Source of the DNA: Pelagomonas calceolata
Lineage: Eukaryota; Sar; Pelagophyceae; Pelagomonadales; Pelagomonadaceae
Direction of reading: 5' to 3'
NCBI GenBank assembly: GCA_918797485.1
Contig: CAKKNE010000004.1
Span: 2,790,001 to 2,854,000 of the forward strand
Length of the DNA: 64,000 bases
The notes under the pieces: model-generated
Told to the model about the DNA's origin: nothing
The model's database searches: none
The model's input: the letters and a program-made list of their open reading frames with translations, nothing else
Position numbers and translations under genes: made by a program
Shown here: piece after piece, positions 34,830 through 38,035 of the stretch
How the letters are laid out: every line of letters begins with the position of its first letter
Numbering within the stretch: position 1 is the first letter of the stretch

Positions 34830-34853
34830 TTAGCAGCTCTGGAGAGCACCTTA

Positions 34854-35420
34854 GATTCAAATCCTGAACTTTGGACCGTGCCGCTCGCAGGCCGTCCCGC
34901 TGCTGTCAGAGGGCCGTCGCGGTCGTCTCGTCTCGAGCAAAAAGCCCGCGGCCGGTTCTCTGCCGGTGGGTTGCAGTGGCGGCCTCGAGCGCGCCACTTG
35001 CCTGGCTCTCGGGCTTTGCTGACGATTGCTTCTTATCGCATGCGACCGAGGGCTCCGCAGCTCTCGGCCGATAGCTGAGACGTGAGCTCCCTTTCGAATC
35101 CCTGTAGCGATTTTATCCGTCGCTATGGATGTCCCATAAAAAGGACAGTTGCACCCAATGGATAAGCATCTACAGATGCGCTACAAGGCGCGAGACTACG
35201 GATCTCGAGATTCAGGGTTAAGCTTATTTTTTTTTGCCCGCTGTGCGACGCGTTCCGTTGAGGAAAGTGGATTCCCGGAGTTTGGCGCCACATGCGTACC
35301 CTCGTACCGTACGAGCGCCGCGCGAGACCCGCGAAGTACCACGACGTCCGCGCCAGGTCGCCGAGGGGCCACGAGGTACATCCTTGGGGTCGCGTCGACG
35401 GCGTGCTGCGGGCTAGCTAG
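34854..35420 (+). repeat. long inverted repeat, left arm
   Basis: About 570 bp matching the reverse complement of 37273-37868 with few differences; the outer edge begins GATTCAAATCCTGAAC in both. The core 35078-35275 is identical by eye. It carries the permuted tRNA-like gene at 35093-35219. The flanking gene pair between the arms is unrelated to the repeat. Confidence 0.85.
35093..35219 (+). tRNA. circularly permuted tRNA-Arg(ACG) gene, copy 1
   Basis: The 3' half precedes the 5' half. Upstream: T-loop TTCGAAT (35093-35099), T-stem strand CCCTG (35100-35104), acceptor strand TAGCGAT (35105-35111). After 7 bases: acceptor strand GTCGCTA (35119-35125, 7 pairs incl. one G-U), U8 G9, D-loop CCCAATGGATAAG (35154-35166, with G18 G19 A20), anticodon arm CGAGA-CTACGGA-TCTCG (35191-35207, anticodon ACG), variable AGATT, T-stem CAGGG (35213-35217) then TT. 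A T9 run at 35227-35235 fits a Pol III terminator. The D-arm needs removal of about 25 and 19 extra bases, perhaps introns (GATG/CATC pairing at 35128-35131 and 35167-35170); this part is uncertain. Confidence 0.7.
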
Positions 35421-35645
35421 TCCTCAGCCGTCCGACGACCGGCGCCATTCGTCGATCGCGCGGTTTTTTTATGGGACTAGTCCTCCGCAATTTTGCGTCC
35501 CGGCCAGGCTTCCGACCGCCGGCTAGCTAGTCCTCAGCAGTGAAATATTAAATGCGTTTTTAACGTGCGGGTTTTCAACGGACTAGCCCTTTTGCGTCCC
35601 AGCCGGGCCTCCGACGGCGGGCTAGCTAGTCCTCAGCAGTGAAAC
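35404..35645. repeat. CTAG-rich tandem repeats
   Basis: GGCTAGCTAGTCCTCAGC occurs at about 35410, 35521 and 35619. Two fuller units share GGACTAGYCC, TTTTGCGTCCC and TTCCGAC/CTCCGAC before it (about 35474-35547 and 35579-35645), with a spacing of about 100 bp. At the inner edge of the left inverted-repeat arm. Confidence 0.7.
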
Positions 35646-35662
35646 GTGAAAACCTAAACTTA

Positions 35663-37272: not shown

Positions 37273-37868
37273 CGTCGCGGCTAGCCAGCCCGCCGCACGC
37301 CGTCGACGCAACCCCCGTAGCTCCACCGCAACTGCGCAGCATGTACCTCGGGGCCCCTCGGCGACCTGGTGCGGACGTCGCTGTACCTCGCGGGCCTCGC
37401 GCGGCGCTCGTACGGTACGAGGGTACGCATGTGTCGCCAAACTCCGGGAATCCACTTTCCTCAACGGAACGCGTCGCACAGCGGGCAAAAAAAAATAAGC
37501 TTAACCCTGAATCTCGAGATCCGTAGTCTCGCGCCTTGTAGCGCATCTGTAGATGCTTATCCATTGGGTGCAACTGTCCTTTTTATGGGACATCCATAGC
37601 GACGGATAAAATCGCTACAGGGATTCGAAAGGGAGCTCACGTCTCAGCTATCGGCCGAGAGCTGCGGAGCCCTCGGTCGCATGCGATAAGAAGCAATCGT
37701 CAGCAAAGCCCGAGAGCCAGGCAAGTGGCGCGCTCGAGGCCGCCACTGCAACCCACCGGCAGAAAATAGACTACAGGCTTTTTGCTCGAGACGACACGAC
37801 CGCGACGGCCCTCTGACAGCAGCAAGACGGCCTGCGAGCGGCACGGTCCAAAGTTCAGGATTTGAATC
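37273..37868 (-). repeat. long inverted repeat, right arm
   Basis: Reverse complement of the left arm (34854-35420). Slightly longer because of an insertion of about 22 bp near 37318-37342. Contains the second permuted tRNA-like gene. Confidence 0.85.
37503..37629 (-). tRNA. circularly permuted tRNA-Arg(ACG) gene, copy 2
   Basis: Same sequence as 35093-35219 on the opposite strand, including every stem, the ACG anticodon loop and the downstream T run (A9 on the plus strand at 37487-37495). Both copies being intact argues against decay, though the arms may be kept alike by gene conversion. Confidence 0.68.
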
Positions 37869-38035
37869 CCAGGTGCCCCCGCCGCTGCCTCTACGCGGCG
37901 CGGCGGGACCCGCGTGGTCGAAGCGACGCGCGTTCGGCGCGGAGCACGACGACGACGGCCGCGTAAGGCGTCCCGTAAACAAAATCTGAACTCGGACGGC
38001 GCGACGGCGACTCGTGCCAGATGATGAATCGGTCC

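Follow-up and report, generated by a model that had tools for sequence, protein, structure and literature searches.

Circularly permuted tRNA genes were catalogued in a 2014 review, which lists 34 such genes from four green algae, one red alga, one nucleomorph and one archaeon (PMC3978253). In its table the junctions fall at tRNA positions 15/16, 20/21, 37/38, 50/51 and 59/60, with at most one intron per gene (PMC3978253). Type IV genes of the red alga Cyanidioschyzon merolae are exemplified by tRNA-Arg(CCT), with a junction at 59/60 and a D-arm intron at 14/15 (PMC3978253); tRNA-Gly(CCC) of the same alga also has a splice site at 55/56, the position of interest here, but as an intron, its permutation being at 37/38 (PMC3978253). 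The archaeon Thermofilum pendens likewise has a T-loop junction, but at 59/60 (PMC3978253). The tRNA genes of prasinophytes and of the Bigelowiella nucleomorph share the permuted order with the gene described below and differ from it in having mostly an anticodon-loop junction at 37/38, an hBH motif and almost no atypical introns (PMC3978253). For Auxenochlorella, a green alga reported later, a standard scan yielded an incomplete set of tRNAs and permuted genes were found afterwards, much as with the gene described below (PMC12633428).

The locus considered here lies in a window of 64,000 nucleotides of DNA, the whole stretch that was analysed, and an earlier note had read it as a circularly permuted tRNA-Arg(ACG) gene of a stramenopile. 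Both parts of that reading held: the permuted gene order is present, and the source is Pelagomonas calceolata, a pelagophyte. The nuclear part of the P. calceolata RCC100 assembly is in six contigs (32.4 Mb), alongside a plastid of 90 kb and a mitochondrion of 39 kb (PMC9481584), and the word tRNA is absent from the main text of the genome paper (PMC9481584). No permuted tRNA of a stramenopile was found in the titles and abstracts of the open-access literature searched, although this search was limited and priority is unproven.

Results

Gene order and the joined tRNA

The gene occupies positions 35095-35219 of the forward strand, and its segments, whose tRNA positions were numbered by hand, are listed in Table 1. 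Two features expected of a permuted gene are present: the 3' half lies upstream of the 5' half, with a 6-nt linker joining the acceptor ends, and a terminator-like run of nine T follows the 5' half. The segments, their order and the T run named in the earlier note were all found where it had placed them; its estimate of about 25 and 19 extra bases in the D-arm held only in part, the lengths being 25 and 21 nt. Four T also stand at the 3' half, between the two halves (35111-35114), and it is conceivable that they halt RNA polymerase III early.

Table 1. Features of the permuted tRNA-Arg(ACG) locus, in window positions, and of other permuted tRNA genes of the genome, in contig (C) positions.
Feature	Position	Strand	Remarks
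Permuted tRNA-Arg(ACG) gene	35095-35219	+	
Leader (BHB outer strand and central strand)	35082-35092	+	sequence
BHB outer helix h', leader strand GTGAGCT	35082-35088	+	pairs 7/7 with 35221-35227
BHB central helix H, leader strand CCCT	35089-35092	+	pairs 4/4 with AGGG 35214-35217
3' half, tRNA positions 56-73 (CGAAT CCCTG TAGCGAT T)	35095-35112	+	
T-loop 3' part CGAAT	35095-35099	+	
T-stem strand CCCTG	35100-35104	+	
Acceptor strand TAGCGAT	35105-35111	+	
Linker between acceptor-stem ends, TTATCC	35113-35118	+	6 nt after N73
5' half exon 1, positions 1-10 (GTCGCTATGG)	35119-35128	+	
Acceptor strand GTCGCTA	35119-35125	+	
D-arm intron 1 at 10/11, 25 nt	35129-35153	+	1 nt + 5-bp hairpin TGTCC/GGACA + 6 nt
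5' half exon 2, positions 11-21 (CCCAATGGATA)	35154-35164	+	
D-loop intron 2 at ~21/22, 21 nt	35165-35185	+	ends ambiguous by up to 3 nt, 4 registers
5' half exon 3, positions 22-55	35186-35219	+	anticodon ACG at 34-36
Anticodon arm CGAGA-CTACGGA-TCTCG	35191-35207	+	
Variable loop AGATT	35208-35212	+	
Partner T-stem strand CAGGG	35213-35217	+	
T-loop 5' part TT	35218-35219	+	
Trailer	from 35220	+	
BHB outer helix h', trailer strand AGCTTAT	35221-35227	+	
Run of nine T, RNA polymerase III terminator-like (role inferred)	35227-35235	+	sequence
Second identical gene copy, same internal order	37503-37627	-	architecture scan, sequence search, alignment
Inverted duplication, first arm	34846-35384		539 nt, 96%
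Inverted duplication, other arm	37338-37876	-	
329-bp block identical to inverted copy	34959-35287	+	whole gene and 123 bp upstream of BHB leader
Permuted tRNA-Arg(CCG), L023	C1:73.7 kb	-	break 30/31; anticodon-loop and T-stem inserts
Permuted tRNA-Arg(CCG) duplicate, L090	C5:73.8 kb		break 30/31; anticodon-loop and T-stem inserts
Permuted tRNA-Ile(TAT), L050	C2:4253350-4254460	-	break 29/30, anticodon stem
Permuted tRNA-Ser(CGA), L055	C2:5473920-5474430	-	break 37/38; D-arm and T-stem inserts

In tRNA order the exons read GTCGCTA TG GCC CAATGGATAA GGC G CGAGA CTACGGA TCTCG AGATT CAGGG TTCGAAT CCCTG TAGCGAT T. With the 25- and 21-nt inserts taken out and the T-loop rejoined, they form a full cloverleaf that ARAGORN calls tRNA-Arg(acg) and that has U8, G18G19, U33 and U54U55C56 (residues assigned by hand on the ARAGORN drawing). 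All stems pair once the exons are joined, as had been claimed of the stems across the permuted order, and the acceptor pair G1-U72 is a wobble. With the inserts retained ARAGORN reports no tRNA-Arg. The joined tRNA is Arg-like in its anticodon loop, in A20, in the variable loop AGATT and in the D-loop, and the last two also resemble those of Arg(CCT) genes in the same genome.

An ordinary gene would be expected to appear in standard scans. Neither ARAGORN nor Rfam (gathering threshold) reported a tRNA in the window, which is the expected outcome because the gene is permuted. A strict architecture scan of both strands, requiring a T-loop motif, a 7-bp acceptor hairpin, T8-R9, an anticodon arm and a matching T-stem, returned two matches, the gene and its second copy, and none in 60 dinucleotide shuffles. 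Nothing was found by a scan for sigma-type promoters and terminators, which is irrelevant to RNA polymerase III.

The T-loop junction

Because TT stands on both sides of the break, as the earlier note had pointed out, the join could lie at 53/54, 54/55 or 55/56. Only the register 55/56 gives a strict hBHBh' bulge-helix-bulge (BHB), with helix h ATTC/GAAT (4/4), central helix H AGGG/CCCT (4/4), an h' of 7 bp (AGCTTAT/GTGAGCT) and bulges TT^A and TT^C; at 53/54 and at 54/55 the central pairs number 2/4 and h' only 0-1 bp. Since the BHB geometry fits solely there, the junction is assigned to 55/56. A type IV junction at 59/60 is excluded, the canonical T-loop permitting only the three registers considered. 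Strict BHB motifs, counted over register pairs in permuted order and 60-200 nt apart, numbered 17 in 17,696,000 register pairs of the window, therefore about one in a million per register, and two of the 17 are those of the two gene copies.

The stretch 35082-35227 is more stable than expected (z = -3.74; none of 200 shuffles equally stable), and in unconstrained folds of four stretch lengths the pair probabilities are 0.74-1.0 for h' and 0.67-0.96 for H. In the unspliced fold helix h reaches a probability of only 0.24 and the T-stem 0.0, because the leader holds AGGG, and the anticodon stem reaches 0.12-0.24; given these low values, the precursor RNA must refold during processing. One centroid of 35082-35227 was the complete BHB. 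A repeat on the same stretch was not, having h', H and the TTA bulge only, with the leader-side TTT paired elsewhere, and the complete-BHB centroid is not relied on. The BHB is, in these model predictions, a permitted and partly favoured fold of the precursor and not an exclusive one.

The D-arm inserts

Both D-arm inserts have the spacing seen at the 55/56 junction, 1 nt, a 5-bp hairpin and 6 nt to the 3' cut. A BHB intron should also have an outer helix and a 4-bp central helix; the spacing and outer helix are present, and the central helix has 3/4 pairs at both inserts. For intron 2 only one of the equivalent registers (register a) yields 1 nt, helix and 6 nt, and its helix is taken as 5 bp rather than 6 because the sixth pair has a probability of 0.0. 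In spacing and outer helix the inserts agree with the suggestion that they are introns, whereas in the central helix each falls one pair short of the BHB pattern.

The positions of the inserts recur elsewhere in the genome. Position 10/11 is common to intron 1 and the D-arm insert of a Tyr(GTA) gene (L071), and position ~21/22 to intron 2 and the Leu-type genes of L001, L007 and L016, labelled Leu(TAG) from an anticodon read by eye. L003 contains both Leu(TAA) genes that have a D-loop insert and Leu(TAA) genes that lack one, and therefore such inserts interrupt otherwise identical exons. Of 20 parsed splice sites 15 combine 3/4 or better central pairing with an outer helix of 4 or more; if the window gene is set aside the count is 12 of 17. 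Five sites fail: the 37/38 and T-stem sites of Arg(CCG) in L023, the junction of L090, the junction of Ile(TAT) and the 37/38 site of Tyr. This parse used one chosen register per site, dropped other registers and wrong cross-pairings, and leaves out two other sites of L090, the Ala(CGC) insert (L096) and Glu-like genes (L065, L066). The registers were picked by hand, guided by the tRNA exons; in two cases with equivalent registers, intron 2 and Leu(TAG), the choice was made by the rule itself.

A second, identical copy

The earlier note had missed a second copy of the gene on the opposite strand, in the other arm of an inverted duplication (Table 1). The 539-bp arms differ at no position within the 329-bp block, against 20 mismatches in the remaining 210 aligned bp (9.5%). 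A genome search with the joined sequence found two places only, both in the window, namely the gene and its minus-strand copy. The identity of the copies may reflect selection or gene conversion, and the data do not separate the two. Between the arms lie two 62-nt direct repeats, 87% alike (35491-35651).

Search for an ordinary tRNA-Arg(ACG)

A normal set of tRNA-Arg(ACG) genes would have counted against the permuted gene. None was found by motif searches of the genome (32,445,274 bases in 8 contigs, of which C7 and C8 look like organelles) and by ARAGORN on selected loci, searches that have gaps. The Rfam tRNA search gave 64 matches and is no census, because only 63 of 492 candidates were scored; ARAGORN on the extracted tRNA loci gave no Arg(acg). 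A D-arm pattern with up to 3 mismatches occurred at 25 places (reversed-pattern control, 5), comprising 10 Arg(CCT)-type and 6 Ser-type D-arms, the 2 permuted Arg(CCG) genes and 7 others, of which two were inspected and are not tRNA-like and five were not inspected. This pattern is blind to the window gene because its D-arm is split. An 11-mer from the anticodon arm matched 9 places (control, 7): both gene copies, and seven others without a tRNA by ARAGORN. The T-arm motif GGTTCRANTCC occurred at 185 places, 37 in C7 or C8 and 148 nuclear; all 148 were passed through ARAGORN without an Arg(acg), and a gene with a different T-arm could escape. Two intron-mode calls of Arg(gcg) were judged misreadings, one coinciding with a Leu-type gene having a D-loop insert (L016) and one overlapping a Leu(TAA) gene interrupted in the same way (L005).

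In a sample of five reading frames (RtcB, a Sen2-like protein and three window frames with Pfam domains), 73 of the 259 Arg codons are CGC or CGT. It is inferred that the permuted Arg(ACG) would be essential if no other gene reads CGC and CGT.

Other scrambled or interrupted tRNA genes

A permuted order is also apparent in three other isoacceptors, Arg(CCG) (two copies), Ile(TAT) and Ser(CGA), whose exons were joined by hand and then identified by ARAGORN. The two Arg(CCG) genes have identical exons and different leaders and lie in duplicated chromosome ends; stretches of C1 and C5 equally far from the contig ends are near-identical, and duplicated ends are described for contigs 1 and 5 of RCC100 (PMC9481584). 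The Ile(TAT) junction lacks strict BHB geometry; a leader-trailer helix of 7 bp (AGACTAC/GTAGTCT) can be made out by eye at a greater distance from it. Ser(TGA), Tyr(GTA), Leu(TAA) and Ala(CGC) are interrupted yet not permuted (ARAGORN on joined exons). No proof was drawn from a covariance model built on the permuted core: good scores went to L050 and L023 but also to tandem ordinary tRNAs, L050 had been used for training, and the matches up to E = 10 do not include the window gene.

Several side observations were made. Further broken tRNA-like genes (the minus strand of L027, L086 and L132/L024) are unresolved and left out of the count; one of them is perhaps permuted, and the L027 gene has a possible acceptor-stem insert. 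L041, L080, L082 and L097 hold similar tRNA-like sequences, that of L041 with a 7-nt insertion, and the anticodons CTA (L080) and TTA (L082, L097) would read stop codons. By eye, the copies in L041, L080, L082, L097 and L101 and the second T-arm of L050 stand shortly before a GCGCAG|G-like splice acceptor, and the copy in L101 has flanking inverted repeats; such copies may be tRNA-derived introner elements. In L001-L007, multiple copies of Ala(TGC), Arg(TCG), Leu(TAA), Trp(CCA) and Arg(TCT) genes are clustered, several of the Leu genes with D-loop inserts, and in L095 (C5:5024750-5025870) two calls of selenocysteine tRNA(TCA) adjoin Trp tRNAs.

Splicing machinery

The catalytic domain of the tRNA-splicing endonuclease occurs in two genes, one (L083) also having the N-terminal domain and matching Sen2 and archaeal endonucleases in the PDB, the other (L084) matching archaeal endonucleases and Sen34 there. 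A separate Sen54-type domain lies on C3, and one RtcB match on C5. The Sen15 family had no match in the genome, a null that is uninformative because no control genome matched either. C. merolae has Sen2, Sen34 and Sen54 and no clear Sen15 (PMC3978253), and P. calceolata resembles it in that Sen2-, Sen34- and Sen54-like genes were found.

Discussion

The locus very likely represents a nuclear tRNA-Arg(ACG) gene that is circularly permuted, functional and present in two identical copies, with a rough probability of 0.88. The gene order, the possible pairings, the BHB geometry, the duplicate and the presence of the enzyme genes are shown. Transcription, every processing step, the circular intermediate, charging and essentiality are inferred from sequence and not from RNA. 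The gene is also inferred from sequence to be one of several scrambled nuclear tRNA genes of P. calceolata.

Given that a fold of the kind cleaved by RNA-splicing enzymes flanks the gene, it is probable that a working tRNA can be restored via a circular RNA. The transcript would run through the 3' half, the 6-nt linker and the 5' half and end at the T run. Its leader and trailer, each pairing to the other as well as to the exons, would form the bulge-helix-bulge, which the tRNA-splicing endonuclease would cut at TT^A and TT^C; a ligase, probably RtcB, would then join T55 to C56, placing ...CAGGGTT next to CGAATCCCTG and closing the circle. Both D-arm introns would be removed by the same splicing enzymes, and RNase P and tRNase Z would cut out the linker, followed by CCA addition. 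In eukaryotes A34 is deaminated to inosine, and the tRNA so modified would read CGU, CGC and CGA.

It is possible that the locus is instead a dead relic, a tandem tRNA-Arg duplication that lost its outer halves and is no longer processed. Permuted genes could arise from tandem copies, and duplications do occur in this genome. However, this is unlikely: the joined stems all pair and a strict BHB is present in the one fitting register, two copies are identical against a flank divergence of 9.5%, the inserts share the intron spacing of other tRNAs in the genome, and searches of the genome by sequence and motif found no replacement gene. A tRNA-derived mobile element (SINE or introner), permuted in appearance by chance of assembly, has in its favour the isolated tRNA-like copies that by eye seem to lie inside repeated elements of this genome. 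It is nevertheless very improbable, given only two copies by DNA search, in one local inverted duplication, and a splicing-type junction in place of element ends. A non-coding RNA, regulatory or circular, that has taken on the tRNA fold without being charged has the unusually stable precursor fold in its favour but can be all but dismissed, given the Arg-like anticodon loop, A20, AGATT and D-loop and the frequent use of CGC in the sampled genes.

With the functional permuted gene preferred, a bolder joint reading is also likely, namely that the nuclear tRNA set of this stramenopile is scrambled on the scale of Cyanidioschyzon. At least four isoacceptors would be permuted (Arg ACG, Arg CCG, Ile TAT and Ser CGA), some with two more introns in the D, anticodon or T arm; CGC and CGU would be read only through permuted, twice-interrupted genes; and an endonuclease of broad specificity would act at many sites of the cloverleaf, in a lineage only distantly related to the red and the green algae. 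If true, the condition would either have originated separately or have been inherited in connection with the red-algal endosymbiont. A stramenopile with several permuted tRNAs would mean a wider origin or spread than the 2014 list (PMC3978253). P. calceolata, a cultured and globally abundant alga, would suit tests of why tRNA genes become scrambled, for which its Leu(TAA) paralogues with and without introns are material. A further consequence is that a standard tRNA scan can overlook genes that may be essential.

Compared with the systems already described, the 2014 table contains neither a permuted gene with its junction at 55/56 nor one that has two introns as well (PMC3978253). The Arg(ACG) gene shares with the type IV genes of C. 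merolae a 3' half that comes first, a short linker, a break in the T-loop, a BHB at the junction and, in putative form, interruption of the D-arm by an intron. It differs from C. merolae tRNA-Arg(CCT) in that the break lies at 55/56 and not at 59/60, the D-arm carries two putative introns and not one, and the host is a stramenopile and not a red alga.
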